Virus record (IMG/VR): IMGVR_UViG_3300032323_000873
Coordinates: 1-21,398 of that record
Length of the DNA: 21,398 bases
Source: a virus
Reading direction: 5' to 3' (one strand)
This document shows, piece by piece, positions 2,293-14,585 of this stretch. The notes under the pieces were generated by a model that did not search any database, was not told where the DNA came from, and saw only the letters and a list, made by a program, of their open reading frames with translations. Position numbers and translations under genes: made by a program. Every line of letters starts with the position of its first letter. The stretch's first letter is position 1.

Positions 2293-2304
2293 GGTTGGTT
2301 CTCC

Positions 2305-2535
2305 TTAGTAAATGTTGGATGCGTTGATGAAGTGTTGCTTGACTGCTCTCAGGGCCGTGCGCTCAATGTGGTTGGTGTGTGTGAGCAGCACGTCCGACCC
2401 AATCTCGTGCGCATTCGTCTTGATGTATTGGCGGACGATCTTCTCCACTGCATCGACGACTGCGCGTTGTATTGCCTCGTCGTGATCTGCGAGCAAGACC
2501 GTGTTGGCCAGTGCGGCGGGTATCGGTTGGTTCAT
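2305..2535 (-). CDS. 76-aa helical hypothetical protein
   Basis: A small, mainly helical protein (MNQPIPAALANTVLLADHDE at the start). Its middle, AVVDAVEKIVRQYIKT, is an amphipathic helix. The ATG at 2535 overlaps the stop of the 70-aa gene (ATGA) and is preceded by GGAGAACCAACC. The stop is followed 12 bases later by the GTG of the DUF3150-like gene, so it lies inside the AAA+/VWA operon. No family recognised. Confidence 0.75.
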   Translation of the reverse strand: MNQPIPAALANTVLLADHDEAIQRAVVDAVEKIVRQYIKTNAHEIGSDVLLTHTNHIERTALRAVKQHFINASNIY

Positions 2536-2744
2536 GGTTGGTTCTCCAGTCGGGTTGTCAAAAACAAATCGAGCACACGGGCGGACTGCACGCGTGACTC
2601 GTCGAAGGTCACTTGGGAAAGCTGTACGGCGTACACGACCCTGTCTTCGCGCTTTCTGTCGTGGATGCGTACCTCAACATCTTCACGCAGTGTTGGGCTG
2701 TACTTGTTGCCTACGAGATCGCAGGCCCAATAGAAGCGGCTCAT
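2532..2744 (-). CDS. 70-aa hypothetical protein in AAA+/VWA operon
   Basis: A small protein with MSRFYWACDLVGNKYSP at the N-terminus and strand-like segments (DVEVRIHD, DRVVYAVQL), suggesting a small beta fold. It is coupled by ATGA overlaps on both sides, to the VWA gene upstream and the 76-aa gene downstream. Its last residues LENQP are encoded by the ribosome-binding cassette of the next gene, so the tail may carry no protein function. No family recognised. Confidence 0.75.
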   Translation of the reverse strand: MSRFYWACDLVGNKYSPTLREDVEVRIHDRKREDRVVYAVQLSQVTFDESRVQSARVLDLFLTTRLENQP

Positions 2745-3925
2745 GGCTTGATCCTCAACACCTTGCCTGCGCGTGGCATGAAGTCATCGTTGTCCACTAC
2801 GCCCCAGAGGGTCGGCATGTCGGTCATGCGGTAGTCGGACTCGATGTAGCCATCGGTCAGCATGATGACAGCCTTGGCTTTGATCTTGTGCTCGGCCACG
2901 TAGTCAGCAACACACGACACAACAGTGCCGCCACCGCCCTTGGGTGCAAGCTGCGTGGCAATGTCTTGGTACTGCTCGGGCTTGAACACCTGATCGTTGC
3001 ACACCTGCGTGTCCCACCACAGCATGCGCACGCTGTCTGGCCGTGTGTTCTGCATGATGCGCGCCACCTCACCGAACACAACAGGGTAGGCCCAGTGCAT
3101 GGAGCCTGACGTGTCGCACGCAATGATGATCTCGCCAATGTTCTCGTCGAAGTGCGAAGGCATGATGAAGCCGGACGCAAGCAAGCGCTTGTTGGGTGGG
3201 CAGAAGCGCGAGTTCTCGTCGCCAACGCACACAGAACTGATGAAGTCCTGCAACGCATCGCGCCAGTTGGTCACGCGCTCCTGCGCTGTGCCAAGGATGT
3301 CACGGCCACCCTCTTTATCACCACGCATCTTGCGCACAAGCAACTCGCCTTGGCGGTTGGCATCGTCGACCATCTTGCCCAGCTTCTCGGTCTCCTCGGG
3401 CGTCATAGGGTCACCACCACCACCGCCGCTCATCTGGTGGTCGTCCATGGCCTGCGGCTGTTCGTCGGCATCCTTGAGCAACTCTTGCAGCACCTGCGGG
3501 TACGACATGCCCTTGAACTTCTCGTCGAACAGAACCTTGATCTTGGCCGGGAAGTCCATGAACTTGCGGTCAGGGTCAAGCTCGTCGATCAGGCCGTTGA
3601 CCACGTAGTCCATGGCCGCGTTGTTGATCTGCGGACCGAAGCGCTTGCTGTACCCGATGTACGTGGGCAAGACGCAGTGCTTGAGCGCTACGTGGAAGTT
3701 CTCGTGCAGCACAACGAAGCGCAGCTCCTTGCGTGTCAGGTCACTGATGAACGCTGTGCCGTACAGCTTGTCCTTGCCGTTGGTTGCAGCAGTGGGCATG
3801 TCATCACACACCTCGGACTTGCCCATGCACACGATGCCGGACAGCAGCGCGAACTTGTGGTGGCGCATCACGTCGATGTTGCACGCTTGGATTTTCTGGT
3901 TGGGGGTAAGTTTGTCAAAGCTCAT
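2741..3925 (-). CDS. VWA protein with DUF2201-type metallopeptidase-like domain
   Basis: 394 aa, two domains. The N-terminal part has the zinc-peptidase motif HENFH at residues 74-78 followed by H83, then NNAAMDYVVN (101-110), as in the DUF2201 metallopeptidase-like family. A Gly-rich, Asp-rich linker follows (about 155-185). The C-terminal part is a von Willebrand A-like domain: MIDAS start DTSGSM (271-276), GGGGT (330-334, near the conserved MIDAS threonine) and LTDGY (356-360). Such proteins are known partners of MoxR-like AAA+ ATPases, which here lies two genes upstream. Known: VWA domains bind metal and mediate protein-protein contacts. Inferred: it works with the AAA+ protein as a remodelling pair. 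The ATG at 3925 has the AGGAGAAGCAACC cassette and an ATGA overlap. Confidence 0.92.
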   Translation of the reverse strand: MSFDKLTPNQKIQACNIDVMRHHKFALLSGIVCMGKSEVCDDMPTAATNGKDKLYGTAFISDLTRKELRFVVLHENFHVALKHCVLPTYIGYSKRFGPQINNAAMDYVVNGLIDELDPDRKFMDFPAKIKVLFDEKFKGMSYPQVLQELLKDADEQPQAMDDHQMSGGGGGDPMTPEETEKLGKMVDDANRQGELLVRKMRGDKEGGRDILGTAQERVTNWRDALQDFISSVCVGDENSRFCPPNKRLLASGFIMPSHFDENIGEIIIACDTSGSMHWAYPVVFGEVARIMQNTRPDSVRMLWWDTQVCNDQVFKPEQYQDIATQLAPKGGGGTVVSCVADYVAEHKIKAKAVIMLTDGYIESDYRMTDMPTLWGVVDNDDFMPRAGKVLRIKP

Positions 3926-4281
3926 GGTTGCTTCTCCTGTTGAAGTTGTTTAAGTACCAGTTCTGTCGGATGGTAAAGCTCCGACATCTTTGGCTCGGTG
4001 TAGACCACGACGAAGTCAGACACCCCGAAGTGCATGGCCCACAAGAACGCGACGGTGTCACGTGCTGCGAACAACATGTCCTTTGTGTGCGTGGCCTTGT
4101 CGAAGAACTCACGGTGAACAAGGCGCAGGGCCTTGTCCTTGATGCCGCGCCCTACGTACAGCGAGACAGCCGCCTTGCCCTTTGCTGCGGTCATCCACAC
4201 CTTGGACACGATCACCATCTCGTCGTCAGCGTTACGGCAGAACAGGTTGATGTTCTGCGACTTGTCGTAACGTGTTGTCAT
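3922..4281 (-). CDS. Hypothetical protein, 119 aa; possible paralog of its neighbour
   Basis: Begins MTTRYDKSQNINLF and shows an alternating strand/helix pattern, with VHREFFDKATHTKDMLFAARD in the middle and AFLWAMHFGVSDF near the end. Its layout matches the upstream 103-aa gene: Y-D near the start, an LxHR-x-F-like motif, a T, a helix rich in L/A, then A-x-H-x-G. I infer a tandem duplication, at low identity. It lies between the AAA+ and VWA genes with ATGA overlaps on both sides, so tight co-production is expected. The final residues QEKQP are encoded by the next gene's ribosome-site cassette. Family unknown. Confidence 0.8.
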   Translation of the reverse strand: MTTRYDKSQNINLFCRNADDEMVIVSKVWMTAAKGKAAVSLYVGRGIKDKALRLVHREFFDKATHTKDMLFAARDTVAFLWAMHFGVSDFVVVYTEPKMSELYHPTELVLKQLQQEKQP

Positions 4282-4589
4282 TGCAGCTTGCTCCGCAAGT
4301 AGTACGCCTCGCCGTGCTGCACAGCGAATAGATCACACATGGTTCGCAGCATGCGGTGCTTCTCCACCTTGGGCGTGTCACGCGGCACGAACATGCGGTG
4401 CAGTACAACGCGGTGTGAGCGTTCTAAACGCGCCGTCATCACCGTCACCCAAAAGCCGTACACGGAGAGCATTGCCCATCCCTCCTTGTACGCCGCCTTG
4501 GCTTCGAGGCGCAGCCCTTTCGGGCCACGCACGAGTTCGCTGACGTCTATGTCTGTATTCACGTAGTCGTATTGGCTCATTGCGTTCAT
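4278..4589 (-). CDS. Hypothetical protein, 103 aa; possible paralog of its neighbour
   Basis: Begins MNAMSQYDYVNTDIDVSEL. The core has KEGWAMLSVYGFW, then RVVLHRMFVPRDTP, then a helix ending FAVQHGEAYY. The motif order resembles the next gene downstream. The ATG at 4589 lies three bases after the AAA+ gene's stop; Met-4 (4580) is an alternative, and neither has a strong Shine-Dalgarno, so translation may depend on coupling to the AAA+ gene. Family unknown. Confidence 0.78.
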   Translation of the reverse strand: MNAMSQYDYVNTDIDVSELVRGPKGLRLEAKAAYKEGWAMLSVYGFWVTVMTARLERSHRVVLHRMFVPRDTPKVEKHRMLRTMCDLFAVQHGEAYYLRSKLQ

Positions 4590-4592
4590 GAC

Positions 4593-5717
4593 TTACTTCG
4601 AGCTGAAGAAAATCTTGTGCGATGCCAAGAGCGAACCGAAGTTCGTCAACGACACATAGTTCGCGATGTTAGACGAGTTGGCCACGCTGTTGCAGAAGAT
4701 CGACTGCATCTCTGTGCGCATACGCAGCACGTACTCCACAACCTTGGCCGCATCGTCGCGGTTGTCAACGCGTGAGACGAACTGGAACACCTGCACAAGC
4801 TGAGCAGTAGGGTTGTCGGCCAGCGGCGCAGTCGCAGGGTCTTTGAGCACACGTTCGAGTGAGCAGATGTCACGGCCAAAGCGCACGAATGAAGACAGCG
4901 CCTCAGCAGTCGTGGCACCCAGCGTACCGATCAGCGCAGCCTCCAGCGTGTCATCGTCGAGCACACCGTCACCAGCATCGAGCACGTCACCCGCTGCAAC
5001 CAAGCTGCGCGGCGTAGCGTAGGCCAGTGCCATCGAGCGAGGGTTGAAGATGTAGCCGTTGTCCTTGGACTGATCCTTGCCCTCGTGCTTGCCGCCCTTC
5101 TCGTAGTCGAGGAACGAGTCCATGACCTGAGCGTAGCTGTTGACGAATGCAATCACCGAAGCGTTGACGCCCTTGTCGATGGCCCACTGCACCCACTCGC
5201 CAGCGGTAGGCTTGCGCATCTTGACGAACACGAGACGGTTGCGCAGGTGCGCTTGAATGCTATCGCCAAGACCCTCGACTGCAAGGTTGGTCGCACAGAA
5301 CACCACGCTGCCCTCGGGCATGTGGTAGTTGCCCACGCGGCGCTCATAGATGATCGGAGCCAGCACGTTCTTGATGAACTGCGGAGCCTTGGCGATCTCG
5401 TCGAGGAACACCATGATTGGCTTGGCACCGTTGACGCCCATCTGATTGGTGCGCGACACACCGAAGCGCTCGTTGGGCAGCTCGCGTGAGACACCGTTCT
5501 CGCGGTCGAGGTCAGGCATCCACACAGAACCATCGGAGAGCTGCGTGCAATCGACGGGGTCAACTGCGATGTGGCCAGCGAACTTGGGGTGCTTCTTGAG
5601 CGCGTGGAACAGCGCGGTCTTGCCGATACCGTTCTCGCCCTCGACGATGACGGTACGCTTGTCGCCCACAGCGGCGATGAGGTTGAGGACTTGAGTGAAA
5701 GAAAGCATTTTGTTCAT
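4593..5717 (-). CDS. MoxR/CbbQ-type AAA+ ATPase
   Basis: 374 aa. Visible ATPase motifs: Walker A GENGIGKT (27-34), Walker B IMVFLDE (101-107), a sensor-1 asparagine in FCATN (140-144), and RNR (159-161), which may contain the arginine finger. The region after Walker B (IYERRVGNYHMPEGSVVFCATN) is typical of MoxR-like ATPases, which form hexamers and remodel target proteins together with a VWA partner. That partner is three genes downstream. The C-terminal part (about 200-374) is helical and specific to this protein. The ATG at 5717 has TAGGAG nine bases upstream. A GGGAACA-type dyad 37-53 bases upstream of the start may control the whole cassette. The substrate in a phage setting is unknown. 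Confidence 0.93.
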   Translation of the reverse strand: MNKMLSFTQVLNLIAAVGDKRTVIVEGENGIGKTALFHALKKHPKFAGHIAVDPVDCTQLSDGSVWMPDLDRENGVSRELPNERFGVSRTNQMGVNGAKPIMVFLDEIAKAPQFIKNVLAPIIYERRVGNYHMPEGSVVFCATNLAVEGLGDSIQAHLRNRLVFVKMRKPTAGEWVQWAIDKGVNASVIAFVNSYAQVMDSFLDYEKGGKHEGKDQSKDNGYIFNPRSMALAYATPRSLVAAGDVLDAGDGVLDDDTLEAALIGTLGATTAEALSSFVRFGRDICSLERVLKDPATAPLADNPTAQLVQVFQFVSRVDNRDDAAKVVEYVLRMRTEMQSIFCNSVANSSNIANYVSLTNFGSLLASHKIFFSSK

Positions 5718-5752: not shown

Positions 5753-5771
5753 CGGGAACACCGTGTTCCCG
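5753..5771. promoter_or_regulatory. Palindromic operator-like site upstream of the AAA+ gene
   Basis: A perfect 19-base odd palindrome, arms CGGGAACAC and GTGTTCCCG around one C. It lies about 36 bases upstream of the AAA+ start. A near copy stands at 7198-7214; read on the minus strand both follow TAACCAA, so about 25 bases are shared. The core fits the family G[C/G]G[G/A]ACA-N3-TGT[C/T]C[C/G]C. It could be a dimer-binding operator; with a one-base centre it is less likely to act as an RNA hairpin. Confidence 0.6.
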
Positions 5772-5777
5772 GCTTGG

Positions 5778-5843
5778 TTAGATAGTGTATCTCATTTGTC
5801 CATTGTTTGACAACTCCTTTGCAAAAAGATTGATGAATGTTCC
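5778..5843 (-). other. Possible gene scar: ribosome-site copy plus short reading-frame remnant
   Basis: Read leftward, GGAACATTCATC (5832-5843) is identical to the ribosome-site sequence before the gene starting at 783, but no ATG follows. The frame continues for 17 codons (NLFAKELSNNGQMRYTI) to a TAA at 5778-5780. That TAA sits in the same TAACCAA context as the stop of the 226-aa gene beside the 7198 dyad. This fits a gene that lost its start and body by deletion. A three-codon minigene after AAAGGAG is an alternative. Confidence 0.3.
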
Positions 5844-5859
5844 TTCTCTCCCTGACGTG

Positions 5860-6795
5860 TCAGGGGTAGGCCGTGGCTGTGTTGGGGAAGTCCTTCGCGT
5901 CCATGAACGGGGCCAGTTGGATGGCGTCAGACCTGCGCTTGAGGGTGCTGCACTCTCGCTTGGCTATTCTCCACAACGCGTCAGCCAGAACCTTCTCTGT
6001 AACGTGTTCCAGTACGGAGTCGTTGGGGTGCTTGGCCATGGCTTTGGTTGCCTCATAGTCGAACACCTCCTCGGCCAGCCCCATGAACGCATTGATGCGC
6101 CTCTCTTGTGACTCCGGCTTGAGCATGTTGAACAGGTCGGATGTAATCGCCTCCAGTGCTTGGCGTGTGTCGAACCCCACGTTGATGCCTTTGAACGGTT
6201 CGAGCAGGTCGTAGTCGATGCGCATGCGCCCATGGAATTCGGGTATGCGCATGCAGGCCAGCGTAATGAGGTTCTCCATGTTGGCCCGTGCCTGCTTGTG
6301 CGCGGCTCTGTCGTCGGGGCTCATGCGCTTGATGTAGTGTGTGGTGTGTGATGACTTGGCCACGTCGATCAGGCGGCGATCAACAAGCCACAGGTCAGCG
6401 CTGAACGTGGAGCCCTTGTCCGTGATGCTGTCTCGGTTGGCGATAGGCAGCGCAACAAGCCGTCCGTCCGTTGTCATCCGGTTGTTTTGGTGGCGCACAT
6501 TGAGCACGTGGCGCATGAACTGTTTGCTCATGTTGGATGGGTGCCCGGTGTACAGCACACGCCGCCCGTCTGCTGTTGGTTTGTAGTAGCGTGCCATCAC
6601 GGTGCTGTGCAGGATCACATCGTAGTACTCGCCCTCGTTGCGTCGCTCGATGCGGTAGTGGTAGGAACGTGAGTCCTTGAGTGGGCGTTGGTTGTCGGCC
6701 CACTTGCTGCGCGGTTGCTTGGTGTTGTTGAACGTGCTGTGCGCTGCCTCCCATGACTCGATGCTGGGCAGGTTGTGTATGGATGTTGAAAACAT
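5860..6795 (-). CDS. Hypothetical protein, 311 aa
   Basis: The N-terminal third (MFSTSIHNLPSIESW onward) is rich in aromatic and polar residues and strand-like (SYHYRIERRNEGEYYDVILH), so probably beta. The rest is charged and helical (KQARANMENLITLACMR, FMGLAEEVFDYEATKAMAK). No nuclease, polymerase or ATPase motif is seen. The ATG at 6795 follows AAGGAGAAGCAACC, the standard ribosome cassette here. Its TGA (5860-5862) lies inside an inverted repeat, CCCTGAC-GT-GTCAGGG (5850-5865). It is the last gene before the AAA+ cassette. Family not recognised. Confidence 0.85.
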   Translation of the reverse strand: MFSTSIHNLPSIESWEAAHSTFNNTKQPRSKWADNQRPLKDSRSYHYRIERRNEGEYYDVILHSTVMARYYKPTADGRRVLYTGHPSNMSKQFMRHVLNVRHQNNRMTTDGRLVALPIANRDSITDKGSTFSADLWLVDRRLIDVAKSSHTTHYIKRMSPDDRAAHKQARANMENLITLACMRIPEFHGRMRIDYDLLEPFKGINVGFDTRQALEAITSDLFNMLKPESQERRINAFMGLAEEVFDYEATKAMAKHPNDSVLEHVTEKVLADALWRIAKRECSTLKRRSDAIQLAPFMDAKDFPNTATAYP

Positions 6796-6812
6796 GGTTG
6801 CTTCTCCTTGGG

Positions 6813-7178
6813 TTAAAAACTGGTGTGAAGTTCGTGCACTGTGCTGACGTAGTCGTACAGATCGCCGTTATCATCATTTGCACGGTAATCTTCTTGGCCG
6901 TCTTCTCCGAGCGCGATGAAACGGTAGATCGCTTCGTACAGTTCGACTGCTTCGTCCATGAGCGTGTGGTGGGCCTGCACATCGGGGTAGCTTTCGTACC
7001 ACTTCACATCGTTTTGCTTGAACGTGATGATCGGATCATCTGTTTGTTCGTGGCCCGTCTCTTCGATGGCCTGCGTTAAATTTGTGTCGTTCTTGGCCAG
7101 CATGAGCGTGACGAAAGCATCGCGCTGCGCGTTGTCTTTGAACTTGATGACGTACGCTACGTCTGATCTGTACCCCAT
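6813..7178 (-). CDS. Hypothetical protein of the MGYRSDV phage family
   Basis: 121 aa, acidic. The opening MGYRSDVAYVIKF is a start I recognise from small uncharacterised proteins in many phages. The middle holds PIITFKQNDVKWYESYPDVQ and the C-terminus is very acidic (ALGEDGQEDYRANDDNGDL), suggesting a small single-domain cytoplasmic protein. The ATG at 7178 has AAGGAGAAGCAACC before it. A GGGAACA dyad (7198-7214) sits 20-36 bases upstream of the start and may control it. Function unknown. Confidence 0.85.
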   Translation of the reverse strand: MGYRSDVAYVIKFKDNAQRDAFVTLMLAKNDTNLTQAIEETGHEQTDDPIITFKQNDVKWYESYPDVQAHHTLMDEAVELYEAIYRFIALGEDGQEDYRANDDNGDLYDYVSTVHELHTSF

Positions 7179-7197
7179 GGTTGCTTCTCCTTAAAGT

Positions 7198-7214
7198 GGG
7201 AACACTGTGTTCCC
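7198..7214. promoter_or_regulatory. Palindromic operator-like site upstream of the MGYRSDV gene
   Basis: A perfect 17-base palindrome, GGGAACAC and GTGTTCCC around one T, in the 42-bp gap between the 226-aa gene and the next start. Same family and flank as the site at 5753-5771, differing at the central base and immediate flanks. Likely a binding site for a dimeric protein. Confidence 0.6.
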
Positions 7215-7220
7215 GGTTGG

Positions 7221-7901
7221 TTAAATTAAAACGCCATCCTCGTCGAACATCCAGCCGTTGGACTCAGCGGCTTCGACCAGTGACTCGTCGCTGGTGAGAT
7301 GTTCGTACTCGGACTCAAGGTCGTCGTATATCTGGCGTGCGTAGGCTTGCGCCTCTTCGAGTATCCACGTCTCAAGGCTGTCGATCAGTTGGTCGATGTC
7401 CGCACCCTTGAACAGTTGGTAGATGTTCGCACGTTGCAGCGGGCCTTCCTCTTGCAAGCGCTCTTCAACGTCTGCATCAAGGCATTCGAGGTTGCTGTAC
7501 CCGATGCTCTCAAGGCGCATCATGTTGTCGTGCACGTAGTGGAAGCCACTGCGGTTGACGTTGGTGTACGGCTCGACCCAATCGTTGTTCTCTGCAATGA
7601 TGGCTTGCAGTACGAAGTATCGGCCGAAGTCAGGGTGATCTTCCTTGAGGTGGTAGTCCAGAAAGTTTTTGATGCGCACGATGCCTGTCCACGATGCGCC
7701 ATCACCTTGTGACCAGAAGCCTGAGAAGCGTATGTCCTCGATCTCGAAGCCGCGCTCGACGCCGTCTTGCTTGGCCATGTCGTAGACGTGCTCCCACCAC
7801 TCGTAGTCGAGCGTCTCGCAGAACCACTCGCGTGCTTTCTGTTGCGCCTTGGCGCTGAGTTCTCGGTAGCTGAACTCGGTCTGTATTGTTTCATTTTCCA
7901 T
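7221..7901 (-). CDS. Hypothetical phage protein with GFWSQGDGA motif
   Basis: 226 aa, acidic. The ATG at 7901 (MENETIQTEF) is preferred over an in-frame ATG at 7916 because GAGGAG lies at the right distance and the upstream frame lies within the previous gene's end. Motifs: a helical N-terminus (SYRELSAKAQQKAREWFCE), then FSGFWSQGDGASWTG (about 62-76) and an HYVHDN segment. WSQGDGAS is a hallmark I associate with a widespread uncharacterised phage family. No enzymatic residues are clear, and a protein-interaction role is only a guess. It overlaps the upstream 56-aa gene by 11 bases. Confidence 0.85.
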   Translation of the reverse strand: MENETIQTEFSYRELSAKAQQKAREWFCETLDYEWWEHVYDMAKQDGVERGFEIEDIRFSGFWSQGDGASWTGIVRIKNFLDYHLKEDHPDFGRYFVLQAIIAENNDWVEPYTNVNRSGFHYVHDNMMRLESIGYSNLECLDADVEERLQEEGPLQRANIYQLFKGADIDQLIDSLETWILEEAQAYARQIYDDLESEYEHLTSDESLVEAAESNGWMFDEDGVLI

Positions 7902-8061
7902 CTTTGTGCTCCTCAATGTCGGTCACGTTGTTCTCGCCGTAGTTGGGGCTGTGGTGTGGGAACAAGCGCCATGCGTGCTCCTCGGCTTGCTCTTCGTTCT
8001 CAGCCTGCACCTCGATGGTGTAGAACTCGATTGCTTGGATGTGTACTGTGTACGCCTTCAT
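7891..8061 (-). CDS. 56-aa acidic hypothetical protein
   Basis: Encodes MKAYTVHIQAIEFYTIEVQA, then an acidic helix (ENEEQAEEHAWRLF) and a polar tail. A strand-strand-helix layout is likely, similar to many small phage proteins whose sequence ends in AENEEQAEE-type helices. The ATG at 8061 overlaps the TGA of the upstream gene (ATGA), with AAGGAG placed in the last codons of that gene. The stop overlaps the next start by 11 bases. The fit of both junctions and the biased composition support a real gene. Confidence 0.7.
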   Translation of the reverse strand: MKAYTVHIQAIEFYTIEVQAENEEQAEEHAWRLFPHHSPNYGENNVTDIEEHKDGK

Positions 8062-8081
8062 TCCTCGTTCTCCTTTTGTTG
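8056..8081 (-). repeat. Gene-junction repeat, copy A
   Basis: These 26 bases match 8415-8440 with one difference (G at 8067, A at 8426). Each copy covers the 3' end of one gene, its ribosome site AAGGAGAA and the ATGA overlap into the next gene. Both upstream proteins therefore end in QQKENEE and both downstream proteins begin MK(A/H). It suggests duplication of a translation-coupling junction. Confidence 0.75.
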
Positions 8082-8420
8082 TGCGGTCACCCGCGAAGTT
8101 GCGGACAAAATGTCCGCGAGTTGTTTCTGCACGATGGCAAGCAGGTGCTTGGTGTGCTCCAGCTCTATCTTGGTATCGTGCATTTCTTTGAACGCCGCAT
8201 TGACCATATCCTGCGCAGCGGTCAGCGTCAGTGGTGTGGTGTACTTGGCCAACTCTTCAGCCGTCATGGCCTCAATCCACGGCTTAGCGCGGGTGATAAC
8301 GGCTTGGAACAGTGCCCCGTTTCGGTGGAACAAGCGCATGAACGTGCCCTGCTCGTTGCGCGCAAGCAGCGCCAGCATCTCGGCCATCAATTGGCCGTCA
8401 GGTTTGTCTTTGTGCTTCAT
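8058..8420 (-). CDS. Hypothetical protein, 120 aa
   Basis: Mainly helical: MKHKDKPDGQLMAEMLALLA, then RLFHRNGALFQAVITRAK, then a long helix (AAQDMVNAAFKEMHDTKIELEHTK) that may be a coiled coil. Near the end, ADILSA is encoded by a GCGGACA palindrome (8101-8117) embedded in the gene. The last residues QQKENEE come from the next gene's ribosome site. It is coupled by ATGA overlaps at both ends. No family recognised. Confidence 0.78.
   Translation of the reverse strand: MKHKDKPDGQLMAEMLALLARNEQGTFMRLFHRNGALFQAVITRAKPWIEAMTAEELAKYTTPLTLTAAQDMVNAAFKEMHDTKIELEHTKHLLAIVQKQLADILSATSRVTAQQKENEE
8101..8117. promoter_or_regulatory. GCGGACA dyad inside the 3' end of a gene
   Basis: GCGGACA-AAA-TGTCCGC, a perfect 7-base-arm palindrome located in codons for ADILSA of the 120-aa gene, about 40 bases before the next start. 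One of five GCGGACA dyads in the window. The placement just ahead of a start fits an operator, though it also has to code. Confidence 0.5.
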
Positions 8421-8440
8421 TCCTCATTCTCCTTTTGTTG
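8415..8440 (-). repeat. Gene-junction repeat, copy B
   Basis: Second copy of the 26-base junction described at 8056-8081, with one mismatch. It carries the end of the 90-aa gene, the AAGGAGAA ribosome site and the ATGA overlap into the 120-aa gene. Confidence 0.75.
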
Positions 8441-8689
8441 ACGGTATGCGTTGAGTGTGCGCCACTTGTCCAGCTCCTTGGTTGACATGACCTGCACTGC
8501 GGCGCTGCGCTTCGTATCGAACAGCGCGAAGCGGTACTCGTAGTTGTTCTCGTGGCCTGTGTACCCGGTCTGCTTGCCCACGTACATCTCCTCGATGGTC
8601 TCTGCCTGCTCAGCAAGGGCCACCATGGCGTCGAGCTGCTCTGCTGTGAGCAACAGCTCAGCGTTACCGAATCTAATCTTGAATCTCAT
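8417..8689 (-). CDS. Hypothetical protein, 90 aa
   Basis: The N-terminus, MRFKIRFGNAELLLTAEQLD, is strand-like followed by a helix (AMVALAEQAETIEEMYVGK); the middle (GYTGHENNYEYRFALFD) is polar with strand character. The layout suggests a small beta-alpha phage protein. The ATG at 8689 overlaps the previous TGA, with GAGGAG nearby encoding the upstream PEELL tail. The C-terminal QQKENEE is the junction repeat. Family unknown. Confidence 0.8.
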   Translation of the reverse strand: MRFKIRFGNAELLLTAEQLDAMVALAEQAETIEEMYVGKQTGYTGHENNYEYRFALFDTKRSAAVQVMSTKELDKWRTLNAYRQQKENEE

Positions 8690-9060
8690 AACAACTCCTC
8701 GGGTATGTTGATGTCGTCACCCAACTTGGATGCAACGTAGCACCGCATGGCGGCGATCAGGGGTGTGTAGCCCTGTTGTTTGTATGTCCAGTTGAACACC
8801 TCTACGGCTTGGCCTCCGTGCTGTACTAAGCGTGTCCCTTTGGGCGCATACGCCGCCCATAGTCCGTCTGGTGTTGATGACATTGCTATGTCCTCCCTGT
8901 CAATGATCGGCCCGCCTTGTGACCAGTCGGTTGATGGTTGCCACATTGCTGGCTCCCCTTCGTGGTAATACACGACAGAGCCCCGAGGGCCAAGTCCTAC
9001 ACCCGCACACTTCGCCACTGCCCAATCAAGGGCAGCGCCTGTCAGTTCAGATGTTTTCAT
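8686..9060 (-). CDS. NinX-like protein (DUF2591)
   Basis: 124 aa. MKTSELTGAALDWAVAKCAG at the start, QPSTDWSQGGPII in the middle (about residues 53-65) and TPLIAAMRCYVASKLGDDI near the end match my knowledge of the phage P22 NinX family (DUF2591): LxGxALDWAVA, PSTDWxQGGPII, AMRxYVxSKLGxEVxVP. Function is unknown; NinX belongs to the nin-region accessory genes of lambdoid phages. The frame extends upstream, but ATG 9060 is chosen because GGAGAGCAGG precedes it and because the upstream 45-aa gene's TGA overlaps it (ATGA). Presence outside a nin region shows that this family travels widely. Confidence 0.88.
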   Translation of the reverse strand: MKTSELTGAALDWAVAKCAGVGLGPRGSVVYYHEGEPAMWQPSTDWSQGGPIIDREDIAMSSTPDGLWAAYAPKGTRLVQHGGQAVEVFNWTYKQQGYTPLIAAMRCYVASKLGDDINIPEELL

Positions 9061-9194
9061 CCTGCTCTCCAATAAAACAAGTCCAACAATAGGACGACAA
9101 TGCACGCCACGTAGATGGCGCACGGGATGTAGCGTGAGACAGGTGGTCTCACATGTGTGGGGATGGGCTTTGCTGGCCCGGTGTATTTCTTCAT
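9057..9194 (-). CDS. 45-aa single-pass membrane protein
   Basis: MKKYTGPAKPIPTHVRPP is a basic, proline-rich N-terminus; YIPCAIYVACIVVLLLDLF (about 22-40) is one hydrophobic segment, ending YWRAG. The positive-inside rule predicts the N-terminus in the cytoplasm. The ATG at 9194 is preceded by AAGGAGCAACC, and the TGA overlaps the next start. Small phage membrane proteins of this kind can be holin-like or superinfection-exclusion peptides, but neither can be claimed. Confidence 0.65.
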   Translation of the reverse strand: MKKYTGPAKPIPTHVRPPVSRYIPCAIYVACIVVLLLDLFYWRAG

Positions 9195-9203
9195 GGTTGC
9201 TCC

Positions 9204-9686
9204 TTACAGCATGTTACGGATAGCGTCTTTGACCTTCTCGTCCCAGTCAATGTTGTCCAGCTCCTCGTCCACGTGCGTGGTGATGAGGTCGTTCACCTGA
9301 TCCTCTGTGACCCAGCCTTCTTGCGTGCGGGCGTACTCTTTCAGCGTCTCACGTGCGGTGTCAGCGGCTATGCGCTCCACGTCGTCGCTGTCGTTGTGCA
9401 CGTAGTTCTGCAGGTGGTAGTCCGTGGCGTTGTCAATCATGATCTCGATCCGTTTGTACATCTCCTCGTCCATGAGCTTGAGCGCGTTGCGGTTGTTCAC
9501 CAGTTCGTCGAATCTGTCCTCGACCAGCTTCTCCACCGCGTTCTGCAAGCCCAGCGCGATCTCGCTGCGCACGTATGCGGCCATGGTTTGGGTCAGTGCG
9601 TGGAACAGCCGCGATGCGGATGCCTCGTGTGGGTCTGGTGCCGGTGTGGGTTCGTCCATTGTGATGGGCATGTCGTTGAGGTTCAT
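9204..9686 (-). CDS. Hypothetical protein, 160 aa
   Basis: Acidic and helical: a Pro/Thr-rich N-terminus (DEPTPAPDPHEAS), then a long helical body with alternating charges (IALGLQNAVEKLVEDRFDELV), and a C-terminal helix ending AIRNML. A coiled-coil or helical bundle is likely. The ATG at 9686 (MNLNDM) is preferred because GGAG lies nine bases upstream; the ATG at 9701 has no ribosome site of its own. It sits ten bases before the 45-aa gene. Family unknown. Confidence 0.8.
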   Translation of the reverse strand: MNLNDMPITMDEPTPAPDPHEASASRLFHALTQTMAAYVRSEIALGLQNAVEKLVEDRFDELVNNRNALKLMDEEMYKRIEIMIDNATDYHLQNYVHNDSDDVERIAADTARETLKEYARTQEGWVTEDQVNDLITTHVDEELDNIDWDEKVKDAIRNML

Positions 9687-9709
9687 GATTGCGTTCTCCA
9701 TAAGTTGTT

Positions 9710-9728
9710 TGCCAGTGACCGACTGGCA
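9710..9728. other. Hairpin between two minus-strand genes
   Basis: Perfect 7-bp stem TGCCAGT/ACTGGCA with loop GACCG, in the 102-bp gap before the 160-aa gene. It stands beside the GCGGACA dyad at 9741-9757. It lacks a T-tract on either side and so is not a typical terminator. It could affect processing or translation of the downstream gene. Confidence 0.4.
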
Positions 9729-9740
9729 GCGGTTGAACTT

Positions 9741-9757
9741 GCGGACAGGATGTCCGC
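9741..9757. promoter_or_regulatory. GCGGACA dyad between genes
   Basis: GCGGACA-GGA-TGTCCGC in the gap between the zinc-finger gene and the 160-aa gene, 55 bases upstream of the latter's start. A perfect member of the dispersed dyad family and one of its intergenic copies, so not constrained by coding. Confidence 0.55.
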
Positions 9758-9776
9758 GAGTTACGAAACAGAGTTT

Positions 9777-9788
9777 GATGAATGTTCC
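9777..9788 (-). repeat. GGAACATTCATC repeat after a stop codon
   Basis: The same 12 bases stand at 784-795 (used as ribosome site) and 5832-5843 (no start codon). Here it follows the TAG of the zinc-finger gene with no ATG after it. The frame is open into the 160-aa gene's frame, so a non-ATG start or decayed start is possible but unsupported. Confidence 0.4.
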
Positions 9789-10538
9789 CTACAAGGTAGG
9801 GGTCGTGTGGCCTAGCCGTGCGGCCGGATCGCCATCTTTGGCCAGTGATGACACCTTGGCCGGTGCTTGTGGCTGTGCCGGTGCTGTCCATGTGGCCAAG
9901 CTGGGCATGCGCGCTCGTTTGCGGTACTCATGCGGCAAGTCTTCCCACAAACGCTTGATGCGCAGGCGCTCTTCCCATTCAAGGAAGGCTTGCCAGTCCC
10001 GGTGCTCGGGCGGCAAGCCTTTGCCCTGCCACAGGAACTTCATGCGCTCCCTCAGTTGGGACAGCACGAGCTTGTATTCCAAAAAGAATGTAAGGTCGAG
10101 ATCAGGCCATGCCTTCTTGACGTGCTTCTCTTGCTGCTGAATGGCAGCCAGCTCAGTGCGCAGCGCCGCCATGACCTCGATCCACGGCGCGGTGCGTGCA
10201 GCTGCCCATGCGGCGCTGGTGGCCATCTGCCTGTTGATCGTGGCCTTGACCTTGCGTTTCTCCAGCTCAGCGTTGGCCAGAGGGGCGTATAAATCCCCAC
10301 TGTTGACGCGGTTGTGGATTTCCTTGGCCGTGAGTTCGCGCAGCCCTCTGGTGCGCGGCTGACATGCCTTGCACATGGATGACTCGATTTCCACGCTGGC
10401 GTGGCCTGAATACCCTCGCGCTCGGGCCTGTGCTCGGGACAGATGGCGCTTGAATTCGGCCAATGGCTTGATGCTTTTGCAGGTCGCACACATGGCAGCA
10501 TGTGTGCCCGGTGCGGGTGAAAGGTAGTGTGTGTCCAT
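9789..10538 (-). CDS. Zinc-finger protein with CxxC-x35-CxxC pattern
   Basis: 249 aa from the ATG at 10538 (MDTHYLSPAPG), chosen because TTGGAG lies seven bases upstream; a longer frame to 10580 lacks such a site. MCATCKSIKPLAEFKR contains C17 and C20, in the form CxxCxxxKPxxEF that occurs in treble-clef zinc domains of HNH-type phage proteins. MCKACQP supplies C56 and C59. No HNH nuclease motif follows; the rest is long helices (about 85-215) and a Pro/Ala-rich tail. Zinc binding and nucleic-acid contact are inferred. It is the first gene after the iteron-like gap, so it might act there, but there is no direct evidence. Confidence 0.8.
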   Translation of the reverse strand: MDTHYLSPAPGTHAAMCATCKSIKPLAEFKRHLSRAQARARGYSGHASVEIESSMCKACQPRTRGLRELTAKEIHNRVNSGDLYAPLANAELEKRKVKATINRQMATSAAWAAARTAPWIEVMAALRTELAAIQQQEKHVKKAWPDLDLTFFLEYKLVLSQLRERMKFLWQGKGLPPEHRDWQAFLEWEERLRIKRLWEDLPHEYRKRARMPSLATWTAPAQPQAPAKVSSLAKDGDPAARLGHTTPTL

Positions 10539-10564
10539 GGTTTGCTCCAATAACATTGTAACGA

Positions 10565-10593
10565 AGTATATTCTGTTCACGTCTTACATTCTA
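10565..10593 (-). promoter_or_regulatory. Candidate promoter for the gene starting at 10538
   Basis: On the minus strand a good -10 hexamer TATACT (10570-10565) stands 27 bases before the start. The -35 position with 17-base spacing reads TAGAAT (10593-10588), a poor match, so an activator or a phage-modified polymerase may be needed. A GTGGACA half-site lies just upstream (10605-10611). Confidence 0.35.
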
Positions 10594-10604
10594 GTGGGCA
10601 TTGA

Positions 10605-10901
10605 GTGGACAGTCGCAAAGCCCCAATGTATGCGGGGTTCACGGGGTGCTGTCCACTTGTCTACAAAAATCCAAGAGAGCTAAGCCGAACAGGCAAAGGT
10701 GAAGTTTCTGGACAAAACTGTCCACTTGCACGCACATATATATATATATCTCTAAATCTCTATTTATATATAGTAGTGTGGTGGACAGTGGACAGTGAAC
10801 GCTAGTATCCATGCGGGTTAGCGGGTGTCCACGCGATGTCCGCTGCGTTGTAAGCGGTGGACATGCAAAATTTGCATAGTTGCGGACAATTTGTCCGCAA
10901 C
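10605..10901. other. Iteron-like repeat cluster with AT-rich tract: candidate origin or control region
   Basis: The gap 10539-10906 has no convincing gene. It contains eleven copies of the heptamer family (G/C)(T/C)GGACA on both strands: 10605-10611, 10650-10656, 10708-10714, 10719-10725, 10781-10787, 10788-10794 (a perfect tandem pair), 10826-10832, 10837-10843, 10857-10863, 10882-10888 and 10892-10898. An AT-rich tract (about 10735-10775) of TA repeats and short A/T runs lies in the middle, a possible unwinding element. CTGTCCACTTG occurs twice (10649 and 10718). Such a design is typical of replication origins with iterons, or of a densely occupied operator region. Which one applies cannot be told from sequence alone. 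Confidence 0.5.
10863..10877. other. Palindrome ATGCAAA-A-TTTGCAT
   Basis: A perfect 15-base odd palindrome at the edge of the iteron-like cluster, directly before the 12-base-arm dyad at 10878-10902. It may be an additional protein-binding site. Confidence 0.4.
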
Positions 10902-10902
10902 T
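10878..10902. promoter_or_regulatory. Longest GCGGACA dyad (12-base arms)
   Basis: Arms AGTTGCGGACAA and TTGTCCGCAACT around a single T, the longest and most perfect member of the dispersed family. It lies a few bases after the stop of the 63-aa gene and closes the repeat cluster. The one-base centre argues for a DNA-level dimer site and not an RNA hairpin. Confidence 0.6.
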
Positions 10903-10906
10903 TGGT

Positions 10907-11098
10907 TCACTTGGCACGCAAGGGGCGTGTGTCTGCCTTGTATGTGTCCCACGCAGCGTCACGGGCTCGGGCCTCTTCGATGACCTTGCGCTTGTAGGCT
11001 TTGTCCGTGGCTAGGCGCACGTAGTCTTCACGCAAGGCGCGGAGCTTGGCGCGTTCGGTCTCACGGATGCTGATGGTGTAACGGTTACGGTTGCTCAT
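10907..11098 (-). CDS. 63-aa basic protein, possible small DNA binder
   Basis: MSNRNRYTISIRETERAKLR: a short strand (YTISI) followed by two helices (ERAKLRALREDYVRL and KAYKRKVIEEARARD). Strand-helix-helix in about 45 residues with many Arg/Lys resembles a ribbon-helix-helix regulator. This is an inference from pattern only; a coiled-coil role is equally possible. The ATG at 11098 has AAGGAGAATCAACC before it. Its position next to the dyad and repeat cluster makes it a candidate for the protein that binds them. Confidence 0.7.
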   Translation of the reverse strand: MSNRNRYTISIRETERAKLRALREDYVRLATDKAYKRKVIEEARARDAAWDTYKADTRPLRAK

Positions 11099-11110
11099 GG
11101 TTGATTCTCC

Positions 11111-11272
11111 TTAGAAGCGAACGTGTTGGAAGTTGGTTGTGCGGGTTGTGATGGCTGCGAAAGGGGGCCAGTGCCCCCAGCGACCTAGAATGTATTGGCG
11201 ACACTGCGCACGCGTGCCTTCAAACATCACAGAGTATTTGTCGCCCCAGTCTCGGGTTACTACACGGTACAT
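11111..11272 (-). CDS. 53-aa hypothetical protein
   Basis: MYRVVTRDWGDKYSVMFEGT, then RAQCRQYILGRW, then FAAITTRTTNFQHVRF. A beta-hairpin, helix, beta-strand layout is likely. The ATG at 11272 follows AAGGAGCACATC; the longer in-frame extension to 11341 overlaps the upstream gene and has no ribosome site. Family unknown, but small proteins that open with a strand-turn-strand of this kind are common in phage early regions. Confidence 0.7.
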   Translation of the reverse strand: MYRVVTRDWGDKYSVMFEGTRAQCRQYILGRWGHWPPFAAITTRTTNFQHVRF

Positions 11273-11282
11273 GATGTGCTCC

Positions 11283-11468
11283 TTAAAGGGTTTCACGGAG
11301 GATGCAAAGGTCGCGGATGGCATCGAAGTAGCCTTCGTCATAGCCGGTCATGAACCAGCGAATGCGCTGGATTTCTCGGTCGATTTCGTAGTGCTCGAAC
11401 TCGCTGCAATCAGGGTCGCCCATGCGGTCGAAGAGGACAAGGGCTTGCAAAAGGTAGATTTCGGACAT
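11283..11468 (-). CDS. 61-aa acidic hypothetical protein
   Basis: MSEIYLLQALVLFDRMGDPD, then a helical, acidic body (EFEHYEIDREIQRIRWFM) and DAIRDLCILRETL at the end; all-helical. The ATG at 11468 has GAAAGG upstream. The frame runs on to 11666 but the upper part lies across the neighbouring gene and has no ribosome site. Family unknown. Confidence 0.7.
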   Translation of the reverse strand: MSEIYLLQALVLFDRMGDPDCSEFEHYEIDREIQRIRWFMTGYDEGYFDAIRDLCILRETL

Positions 11469-11478
11469 GGCACGCCTT

Positions 11479-11619
11479 TCAGTTGTTGAAGTCTGCGTTG
11501 TATGCGTCGAGCACGGACTCTTGCGACTCAATGTCGAAGTAGTCACGCCCTTCAGTGAGAGCGTCGCATTCGGCAAGGAATTGGGTGCGTTGGATGTTGA
11601 TGATGAGTTGTTTGGACAT
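11479..11619 (-). CDS. 46-aa hypothetical protein
   Basis: MSKQLIINIQRTQFLAECDA, then an acidic helix (FDIESQESVLDAYNADF). The ATG at 11619 follows CCGGAG at nine bases; a second in-frame ATG at 11640 has no ribosome site. Family unknown. Confidence 0.65.
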   Translation of the reverse strand: MSKQLIINIQRTQFLAECDALTEGRDYFDIESQESVLDAYNADFNN

Positions 11620-11690
11620 GGTTGAAACTCCGGTTGACATGGAAAGGAACAACGGGCCAGCACCATGCTGACACCGTTGCAGGGAAACTC

Positions 11691-11707
11691 GCGGACAACT
11701 TGTCCGC
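11691..11707. promoter_or_regulatory. GCGGACA dyad just after a gene end
   Basis: GCGGACA-ACT-TGTCCGC (with the inner A/T pair also matching). It stands three bases past the stop of the first minus-strand gene, in the 91-bp gap before the 46-aa gene. Confidence 0.55.
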
Positions 11708-11710
11708 AAC

Positions 11711-12112
11711 TTATTCAAAAGACAGCGACTCGCGGACAGCGCGCAGCAGGGCATCGACTTCTGCCTTGGTCAAACCCGCGCACACATCAACGATGGCGCT
11801 GACCTTGCGCTTGTTGACGACAACTTGTTCACGGTTGACTGGCTTTTTGGGCAAGTCAACCGACGGGAAGCACACGGACAAGACACGGTTCATGGCTTTC
11901 TCAGCCGCGCTGTCGCGTGGCAGCTTGGCACCACGTTGCCCCTGCTCGATTGTCACGTTGTACTTGGCCGCTGCCCAGTCCATTGCAAACGGCTTGGCCG
12001 CTGCACGACTGTCGATGCCAAGGGCCATTAGCCGTTCCGCAAAACTGGCGGACATGTTGTCCGCATCGTTGAACACGGCGTAGATGGCTTTGACGTTGAT
12101 TGCTTTACTCAT
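11711..12112 (-). CDS. First gene of the minus-strand operon, 133 aa, unknown
   Basis: The ATG at 12112 (MSKAINVKAIYAVFND) follows AGGAG eight bases upstream; a longer frame to 12166 lacks a ribosome site and covers the leader hairpin. The protein is helical and basic in its second half (VNREQVVVNKRKVSAIVDV). The segment MDWAAAKYNVTIEQGQRGAK is conserved-looking, but I cannot name a family. A GCGGACA dyad (12048-12064) encodes residues ADNMSAS (17-23). As the promoter-proximal gene it may be an early protein. Confidence 0.78.
   Translation of the reverse strand: MSKAINVKAIYAVFNDADNMSASFAERLMALGIDSRAAAKPFAMDWAAAKYNVTIEQGQRGAKLPRDSAAEKAMNRVLSVCFPSVDLPKKPVNREQVVVNKRKVSAIVDVCAGLTKAEVDALLRAVRESLSFE
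12048..12064. promoter_or_regulatory. GCGGACA dyad inside the first minus-strand gene
   Basis: GCGGACA-TGT-TGTCCGC, about 50 bases into the coding sequence (codons for ADNMSAS). A site this close to the start could block early elongation by an operator-bound protein. Confidence 0.5.
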
Positions 12113-12472: not shown

Positions 12473-13081
12473 ATGTTTGAACATTTGGTGCAATTCAACC
12501 CGGAGCCAACACCGCCCGGGGTCATGACGAGACTGGCCGACGCTGAGCCGGGGGAAGTCCTGTCCGCGCAGGTGGCCACGGCCAGCTGGTTGCAAGAATT
12601 GGGCGCGCCGCCAGACGACGAAGTCATTGACGCGCTGGAGAAGGCCGACGCGCGCAAGGCGTTCCAAGCCCTGACCACCAACACAGACACGGCCGAGCAG
12701 AAGGCTGCGCTGGTCCAGCTCAAGACGCCCGAAGCTGTGCGCCACATCACGGGCATGCTGACGGCCTACGACTGGGAGTTCATCGAGCAGGCCAAGGAGC
12801 TTCGCGGCTACACGGTGGCCAAGCTGGTCGAGGAGACCACCAACGCCAACCCCAACATCCGATTGAAGGCGCTCGGCCTGCTGGGCAAGGTCACGGAGGT
12901 CGGGCTGTTCACCGACAAGATCGAGGTCAAGAAAACCGACATGACCGAAGACGAGATCGACAAGCGCCTCAAGGAAAAGCTGGCCAAGTTCATGAACGTG
13001 ACCGACGCCGACGTCACGGACATCACTGAAGTCACCCCCAACACCGAAACACCCGATGACGCCAGCAACACTGACGCCTGA
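12473..13081 (+). CDS. Probable terminase small subunit
   Basis: 202 aa from the ATG at 12473 (MFEHLVQFNPEP), with AAGG about ten bases upstream; the frame is open back to 12341 but without a ribosome site. The protein is helical and acidic: RHITGMLTAYDWEFIEQAKEL, then ANPNIRLKALGLLGKVTEVG (about residues 122-141), a phrase I associate with small terminases of environmental phages, and a very acidic tail (VTDITEVTPNTETPDD). It is first in the rightward block and overlaps the large terminase by 26 bases. Role: recognises phage DNA and loads it on the large subunit. The name rests on position and sequence style, as no clear helix-turn-helix is seen. Confidence 0.75.
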   Translation: MFEHLVQFNPEPTPPGVMTRLADAEPGEVLSAQVATASWLQELGAPPDDEVIDALEKADARKAFQALTTNTDTAEQKAALVQLKTPEAVRHITGMLTAYDWEFIEQAKELRGYTVAKLVEETTNANPNIRLKALGLLGKVTEVGLFTDKIEVKKTDMTEDEIDKRLKEKLAKFMNVTDADVTDITEVTPNTETPDDASNTDA

Positions 13082-14585
13082 ACAAGCCGCTGCGCTGTTC
13101 AAAAACCTCGGCAAGCTGACGGCGGCCGAGAAGTTGGAGGCGTTGGAGCTGCTGGACAAGGCGCAGGCGCACAAACAGAAGAGTTTGGCGCGCTCGGACA
13201 TGATCGAGTTCGCCAAAGCGGTGTACCCGGGCTTCAAAATCGGCCCGCACCACAGAAAACTGGCCAAAATCTTCTCGGAAGTGATCGCCGGGACCAAAAA
13301 ACGCGTGATCATCAACATCGCGCCGCGTATGGGCAAGTCCGAGTTCAGCTCCTACCTGTTTCCTGCCTTCTTTTTGGGCAATTTCCCCGAGAAGAAGATC
13401 ATCATGGGCACCCACACCGCCGGTTTGTCGGAAGACTTCGGCCGCCGGGTGCGAAATCTGCTTGCCGACGAGGACTACCATGGCCTTTTCCCCCGCACGC
13501 TGGTGGCCGACGATCAAAAAGCTGCCGGTAAATGGTCTACAAGTGCTGGTGGTCAGTACTATGCTGCTGGTGTCGGCGGCGCTCTTGCTGGTCGTGGTGC
13601 TGATCTGTTCGTTATTGACGATCCTCACTCGGAGCAGGACGTCAAGGCCAACTCACGGTTGGCTTTCGACACTGCGTGGTCTTGGTTCCAGACCGGCCCG
13701 CTCCAGCGACTGATGCCGGGCGGGGCGATCATCATCGTGATGACGCGCTGGGGCAAGCTGGACCTGACCGGACGCCTGATCGACTATCAGGCCAAGAACC
13801 CTGAGTCCGAGCCATGGGAGATCGTGGAGCTTCCGGCCATCTTGCACGAGGACACGGAGAACGAGAAGTCGCTCTGGCCCGAGCAGTGGCCGCTGGCCAC
13901 CCTCAAGGCCACCAAGGCCAGCATTGACCCGCAGTATTGGAACGCCCAGTACATGCAGCAGCCCACCAGCAACAGTGCGGCCATCATTTCGCGCAAGTCG
14001 TGGCGCGTCTGGGAACGGGACGAGCCGCCGCGCTGCGACTACATCATCCAGAGCTGGGACACGGCGTTTGAGACGTCGAACACGGCCGACTATTCCGCGT
14101 GCACCACGTGGGGGGTGTTCTACAACGAGGAAGAGAACGACAAGCCGCAGGTCATCCTGCTGGACGCGTTCAAGGACCGCATGGCCTTCCCAGAACTCAA
14201 GACCGTCGCGCTCAAACACTACAAAGAGTGGGAGCCCGATGCGTTCATCGTGGAAAAGAAGGCCGCTGGCGCGCCGCTGATCCAAGAGCTGCGGGCCATG
14301 GGCATCCCGGTCGAGGAGTTCACCCCCAGCCGGGGCAACGATAAAATCGTCCGGCTCAACGCGGTGTCTGACCTTTTTGCCTCTGGCGCGGTCTGGGCAC
14401 CGGACACGCGCTGGGCACGCGAAGTGATTGAGGAAGTCGCGTCCTTTCCCAACGGAGAGAACGACGACTTCGTTGACACCACATCTCAGGCACTGTTACG
14501 CTTCCGCCGGGGCGGCTTCATTCCGTTGGACACTGACGAGCAGGAAGAGCGCTTCTACCAAGCCCGCCGGGCTGCGTACTACTAA
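13056..14585 (+). CDS. terL: Terminase large subunit
   Basis: 509 aa, the packaging motor. ATPase: Walker A-like APRMGKS (89-95), Walker B LFVIDDPH (184-191, in GRGADLFVIDDPH), coupling segment IVMTRW (227-232). Nuclease: RNase H-like, with QSWDTA (332-337; D335), FIVEKKAAG (E400) and NGENDDFVD (466-474) as likely metal ligands. The C-terminal part matches the TIGR01630 type of phage terminase. Start ATG 13056 overlaps the small-subunit stop by 26 bases; no strong Shine-Dalgarno is visible, so coupling to upstream translation is likely. Codons for about residues 163-195 switch to T-ending forms (GCT, GGT, CGT), unlike neighbouring GGC/CTG-rich codons, an odd patch over Walker B. Confidence 0.95.
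   Translation: MTPATLTPEQAAALFKNLGKLTAAEKLEALELLDKAQAHKQKSLARSDMIEFAKAVYPGFKIGPHHRKLAKIFSEVIAGTKKRVIINIAPRMGKSEFSSYLFPAFFLGNFPEKKIIMGTHTAGLSEDFGRRVRNLLADEDYHGLFPRTLVADDQKAAGKWSTSAGGQYYAAGVGGALAGRGADLFVIDDPHSEQDVKANSRLAFDTAWSWFQTGPLQRLMPGGAIIIVMTRWGKLDLTGRLIDYQAKNPESEPWEIVELPAILHEDTENEKSLWPEQWPLATLKATKASIDPQYWNAQYMQQPTSNSAAIISRKSWRVWERDEPPRCDYIIQSWDTAFETSNTADYSACTTWGVFYNEEENDKPQVILLDAFKDRMAFPELKTVALKHYKEWEPDAFIVEKKAAGAPLIQELRAMGIPVEEFTPSRGNDKIVRLNAVSDLFASGAVWAPDTRWAREVIEEVASFPNGENDDFVDTTSQALLRFRRGGFIPLDTDEQEERFYQARRAAYY

Follow-up and report, generated by a model that had tools for sequence, protein, structure and literature searches.

The early modules of a large and almost unannotated family of freshwater bacterial viruses carry non-random symmetric dyads at conserved positions. 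Each lineage has a dyad sequence of its own, and this sequence is coupled to the N-terminal domain of the protein encoded by the first early gene. Because dyad and first-gene protein change together, the two look like a lock-and-key switch for genes; in the literature searched, of which coverage was partial, no description of such a system was found. We consider it likely that the dyads are dispersed operators for the first-gene regulator, that sites and regulator change in concert, and that the system most likely acts as a roadblock to transcription elongation.

The window is a virus record of 21,398 bp from IMG/VR (IMGVR_UViG_3300032323_000873). It contains exactly seven perfect 7-N3-7 dyads of any sequence, each 17 bp long, where about 1.3 would be expected by chance, and all seven stand exactly where the original prediction had placed them. 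Allowing up to two mismatches to the dyad consensus gave nine matches in the window (shuffled sequences: mean 1.1, maximum 3); no site had one mismatch, and the set is therefore all-or-none. Five dyads have GCGGACA arms and two have GGGAACA arms. All lie within the early module on the minus strand, and their predicted absence from the structural block on the plus strand was correct. The features are listed here, the dyads without strand.

4593-5717, minus strand: MoxR-like AAA ATPase (weak AAA matches), a distal gene with a dyad upstream
5754-5770: dyad GGGAACACCGTGTTCCC, GGGAACA dialect, in the leader of the MoxR-like ATPase gene
7198-7214: dyad GGGAACACTGTGTTCCC, GGGAACA dialect, in the gap that separates gene 7221-7901 from gene 6813-7178
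8101-8117: dyad GCGGACAAAATGTCCGC, in gene 8058-8420 at its 3' end, with gene 7891-8061 beginning 40 nt downstream; encodes ADILSA
9741-9757: dyad GCGGACAGGATGTCCGC, past the stop of gene 9789-10541, with gene 9204-9701 beginning 40 nt downstream
10882-10898: dyad GCGGACAATTTGTCCGC, 8 nt past the stop of gene 10907-11098
11691-11707: dyad GCGGACAACTTGTCCGC, 3 nt past the stop of the first early gene
12048-12064: dyad GCGGACATGTTGTCCGC, within the first early gene; encodes ADNMSA
11711-12112, minus strand: first early gene, type X, 133 aa, the proposed dyad-binding regulator
13056-14585, plus strand: large terminase, the marker for gathering the phage family

The GGGAACA pair lies 20-53 nt before gene starts, as had been noted, and the two dyads in coding sequence do force the residues ADxxSA (QLADILSATS at 8101 and DADNMSAS at 12048).

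A search with the terminase gathered 80 related loci at 80-97% identity, while a terminase scan of genome_contigs yielded no relatives. Dyad families were then sought without supervision in 212 contigs (arm of 6, spacer of 0-11, at least three copies). A private dyad family stands upstream of the terminase in most of the terminase relatives that include enough early sequence; none of the 212 shuffled contigs had one. The copies are near-identical within one phage and the arms differ from phage to phage: GCGGACA in the window, and elsewhere GTGGGACA, GTGATACA, AGAGAGA, GGGGACA, TGGGACA, TGATACA, TGAGAC, AGATAGA, GCTGACA, GCAGACA, TGGCACA, GGGACAAC, ACGGGGC and others. In the AGAGAGA phages the spacer varies from N2 to N4, which is unusual for a rigid dimer. 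The confinement seen in the window extends to relatives, since five contigs of 37-66 kb have every site with at most one mismatch in the early module and none elsewhere; two-mismatch matches outside it are few (G008) and occur at about the shuffled rate.

The first early gene product of the window, the candidate regulator, matched no Pfam or PHROG family. Relatives of this type X protein, and of the other first-gene types Y, W and U, were absent from 50,697 annotated phage records in protein searches. Profile comparison relates type X to type U, and a C-terminal domain is common to all first-gene types; conserved stretches in the full type X alignment are too few for alignment-based scans. AlphaFold (AF2) models, with mean pLDDT of 77 for type X and 83 for type Y, predict a common fold of three helices, a beta-hairpin and a further helix (H-H-H-b-b-H) plus two C-terminal helices. 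Foldseek comparison of these models with PDB and BFVD gave no significant match, and winged-helix proteins were frequent among the insignificant matches only.

The N-terminal part of this protein, sorted into classes with HMMs, predicts the dyad dialect. Class X goes with GC[G/T/A]GAC dyads, class Y with GTGNNAC (and GGGAACA), classes W/Z with AGA[G/T]AG and GGGGAG, class U with GGGAC types and CGGGGC, and class V with GGGACAAC and CTGGGG. Across 46 dereplicated loci, a shared dyad core was predicted by N-terminal similarity with an AUC of 0.95, against 0.72 for the C-terminal part and 0.62 for the terminase, relatedness being only partly controlled in this comparison; because many of the sequences are related, such association statistics do not count independent events. 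Two blind tests, from dyad to protein and from protein to dyad, both worked. When loci were fetched by the GCGGACA dyad only, the protein was encoded in 14 of the 19 loci with at least two dyads and in 4 of the 101 with one (Fisher 4e-11, relatives counted apart). A scan with GGGAACA only, in its first 120 stretches, returned three contigs with at least three copies, and all three encode type Y and also a related terminase. In the opposite direction, fetching by the type Y protein only brought in eight new contigs, among which L351/L352 and L362/L364 are close relatives, and 8/8 carried a dispersed dyad family of the GTGNNAC class.

These dialects change the reading of the window itself. It had been proposed that one degenerate consensus covers both arm types and that one regulator serves all seven dyads; neither holds, and there are two regulator dialects instead. 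GGGAACA is the dialect of the type Y proteins of L295, L325 and L344, whereas GCGGACA fits the window's own type X protein, and the window therefore looks like a mosaic. The type X protein would be expected to recognise the five GCGGACA sites and not the GGGAACA pair, for which a second regulator may be encoded outside the 21,398-bp fragment. L325 and L295, phages of the GGGAACA dialect, have an identical copy of the window's dyad at 5754, with closely similar flanks; L125 has two adjacent dyads there, one GCGGACA and one GTGAGAC-type. At the place aligned with the window's dyad at 7198, the dyad is GGGAACA in L325 and TGAGAC-type in L125. Non-cognate dialects thus occur at two sites in the window and at some sites in L125 and in L183, which mixes two.

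Certain residues of the protein covary with bases of the dyad. In type Y proteins dyad base 4 is best predicted by residue 86, where R accompanies G and any of T, Q or F accompanies A, with a single exception; residue 87 scores highly for base 5. In type X residue 75 follows base 3 (N or R with G, Y with T, D with A). All three lie in the predicted helix after the hairpin. Type Y columns 38 and 42 were set aside, since they are encoded by the in-gene dyad. With few sequences in the comparison and other type X columns scoring alike, the covariation is suggestive, and these residues may mark a specificity helix.

A check of positional conservation, as the original prediction had proposed, found the place kept between phages while the dyad sequence was swapped. 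Relatives' dyads occupy corresponding gene boundaries with different arms, and 39 between-contig matches, in which some sites are counted twice through AGAGAG register shifts, show homologous flanks around the same dyad place with different arms. Such swaps are seen as far as about 3 kb away from the regulator gene: about 3 kb past the first gene, L129 has AGAGAGA where L138 has GTGATACA, with matching flanks. Similarly, L115 and L148 carry GCGGACAACTTGTCCGC and GCTGACAACTTGTCAGC, respectively, at an orthologous place, and a GTGAGAC dyad, GTGAGACACCGTGTCTCAC, takes the place of the window dyad at 10882 in L125 and L127. Other sites are retained, such as the dyad at 8101, whose 17-mer is identical at L125:5099, and that at 9741, which is kept in L065 with an altered spacer.

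The dyads had been described as lying near gene boundaries; this stands, with the refinement that they hug the preceding stop more closely than the following start. Of 170 non-redundant sites, 71% have their first base between -12 and +30 nt relative to a preceding stop codon (background 10%), and for 60% the next start is at most 120 nt from the dyad end (background 28%); 29% lie inside ORFs (background 64%). No enrichment of promoters was found at the dyads, sigma70-like promoters lying near 6 of 185 sites. In L009, L038 and L039, which belong to a different phage group, a GCGGACA dyad fills the promoter spacer from TTGCAC to TATAAT, the classic place for an operator; type X protein was not found in these contigs.

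According to the proposed mechanism, the first early gene product would bind the dyads as a symmetric dimer whose two subunits each read one half-site of 6-8 bp, with specificity coming from the helix that follows the predicted beta-hairpin. Each lineage would have its own dialect, regulator and all sites shifting together. The bound regulator would stop or hinder RNA polymerase between genes, in the manner of a stoperator roadblock, and would curb transcription of its own gene by way of the sites inside that gene and just past it. We infer direct binding, dimerisation, repression and the block to elongation; the roadblock is the most likely mode, judged from site position, since the sites mostly come just past stops within the early operon and only a few are at sigma70 promoters.

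The regulator might instead be an activator or antiterminator that passes polymerase into the distal early genes by an N- or Q-like logic. It is encoded by the first gene of the operon and is followed by terminator-like dyads, and many distal genes have sites upstream. However, there is not one single site near the promoter but a series of sites at many gene boundaries, and Pfam, PHROG and fold searches revealed no similarity between the first-gene protein and known antiterminators. We think this unlikely.

The abundance of dyads after stop codons could also mean that they function as RNA hairpins in the early mRNAs, whether as intrinsic terminators or as processing or stability elements. The dyad after the first gene recurs across relatives with a T-run next to it on the sense strand in 21 of 38 cases, and never on the antisense strand; in L041, L069 and L107 a dyad forms the stem of a strong terminator. 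At the other sites, however, T-runs are rare (14 of 148). Among 186 non-redundant sites there was no excess of Watson-Crick pairs outside the arms and no consistent bias of G-T over A-C, the innermost mismatches being G-T in 7 cases and A-C in 10, so that flank pairing and wobble bias give the hairpin reading no support. The pairing pattern would fit half-sites that are read independently in duplex DNA. Structure alone also leaves unexplained why each phage has one stem sequence that tracks a protein domain, and the same dyad occupies the promoter spacer in L009, L038 and L039. RNA hairpins are therefore an improbable account of the sites in general. For the dyad after the first gene, which may double as a terminator because a T-run follows in 21/38, dual use is likely.

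Roles outside transcription, in DNA partition, replication-fork arrest or packaging, are very improbable. Centromere sites of phage-plasmids are likewise dispersed dyads with a cognate protein, and the early module contains a repeat-rich noncoding stretch. In contrast to such partition systems, no ParA-like ATPase was matched in 11 relatives (PF13614), and searches of 9-11 relatives, of which several are incomplete, for integrase, resolvase and ParA (PF00589, PF00239 and PF13614) gave no match. Lytic growth of the family is likely. The hugging of stop codons and the confinement to one operon also suit transcription better. That the dyads are a functionless repeat, due to chance or mobility, for which the near-identity of copies within a phage might speak, is hardly credible given the symmetric swaps at orthologous places, the conserved positions and the link to a single protein domain.

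Dispersed operators for a dimeric regulator, comparable to stoperators, had been the class proposed originally. This class remains the best supported, with the provisos that there is not one regulator and that the sites are symmetric and limited to the early module. Among known systems, the SAS/ESAS elements of Cluster K phages are gene-boundary repeats conserved by gene, with inverted-repeat parts and a genome-specific consensus; SAS is asymmetric, lies at start codons and has a proposed role in translation (PMC3203893). The dyads resemble them in being gene-boundary repeats with inverted symmetry and a genome-specific consensus, but the part of the source consulted describes no coupled regulator (PMC3203893). 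The stoperators of L5/Bxb1 (Cluster A) occur in many copies per genome, many in short intergenic gaps and few at promoters, and their consensus varies by phage in step with the immunity repressor; a site in L5 is an asymmetric 13-bp sequence in the orientation of transcription, these sites occur genome-wide, a monomer binds them, and the phages are temperate (PMC6550527, PMC9283540). The freshwater system shares with L5 many dispersed copies of one site, mostly away from promoters, whose sequence tracks a putative regulator between phages. Unlike those of L5, its sites are symmetric dyads of about 15-22 bp in the early module only, no lysogeny genes were found, and the first-gene protein has no Pfam, PHROG or significant PDB match. 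Because symmetry, distribution, apparent life style and protein family (as tested) differ, we do not file it as a member of the L5 stoperators.

Lambda-type operators are 17-bp dyads read by a dimer, but they cluster at promoters, whereas promoter-like matches stand near only 6/185 of the freshwater dyads. The hairpin promoters of the N4 virion RNA polymerase have a short stem and a 3-nt loop and serve early genes, and the MoxR-like ATPase is similar to that of N4-like phages; the window's ATPase resembles those of pYD6-A, VBP47 and others. Unlike N4 promoters, the dyads have variable spacers and no conserved loop base. The giant ORF of the relatives shows LPD38 only, with no polymerase domain found (the PF00940 profile search matched 0 control genomes). 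N4-type hairpin promoters were rejected on these grounds, the loops being unconserved and the giant ORF being LPD38 with no PDB match.

An isolate offers a way into the system. The early module of cyanophage MinM2 (OQ594354.1), a phage of Synechococcus, is of the same VWA/DUF3150/MoxR kind, and the phage has 17 copies of a dyad GGTTCAG-N1-CTGAACC; those in the early module lie mostly 0-17 nt past stop codons, often 4 nt, and some copies are also found in the structural part. Its first early gene product, WEV89279.1, is the only ORF of 873 with the shared C-terminal domain (E = 5e-9). The dyad and regulator can thus be tested in an isolate.

The analysis names a candidate regulator and its sites for a widespread, almost unannotated freshwater phage family. 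It provides about ten or more natural site/protein specificities, including the single-step pair L115/L148, a series useful for studying concerted change of a regulator and its scattered sites. It is a tentative thought, more doubtful than not, that the dialects of these probably lytic phages are incompatibility groups, in which a resident regulator would silence the early genes of an incomer with the same dialect and so drive fast diversification; the mosaics would then be group switchers. If the roadblock is true, the family would hold a stoperator-like system built on an unrelated-looking protein, apparently without lysogeny.

Such dyads stand in two further settings among the contigs and loci compared with the window. 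In a separate phage group (L009, L038, L039), the spacer between TTGCAC and TATAAT is exactly the GCGGACA dyad, with small genes of a different family downstream; in L041, L069 and L107, a strong intrinsic terminator has a dyad of the family as its stem, followed by GAGTTTTTTT.

L009: 4123, 4703, dyad as promoter spacer
L038: 4639, 5185, the same
L039: 3934, 4495, the same
L041: 6296, dyad-stem terminator
L069: 8095, the same
L107: 6082, the same

In the first early gene, the N-terminal and C-terminal domains are shuffled between phages independently of each other across all relatives. The gap between the terminase gene and the early module holds a near-identical AT palindrome of the AAATTTTTATAAAATTT type in several relatives.

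L209: 4 (G006: 9824 = L208: 9824), AT palindrome
L211: 4724, the same
L222: 6510, the same
L223: 14513, the same
L218: 14408, the same

The window and the isolate cyanophage MinM2 (OQ594354.1) share a gene module, whose MoxR-like ATPase in the window is weakly similar to N4-like phage ATPases. L205, L212 and L217 carry giant ORFs, 2230-2638 aa long, in which an LPD38 domain is present; their products are probably injected virion proteins.

Window 1414-5717: DUF3150-like, VWA/metallopeptidase and MoxR-like genes
L205: 10283-16975, giant LPD38 ORF
L212: 10056-17972, the same
L217: 5529-12332, the same

Window 10541-10906 is a noncoding, more AT-rich stretch. TGTCC/GGACA occurs there in 11 copies within 366 bp (30 per kb, versus 3.5 per kb in the window), a TATATA tract is also present, and the stretch may be an iteron-containing origin of replication.
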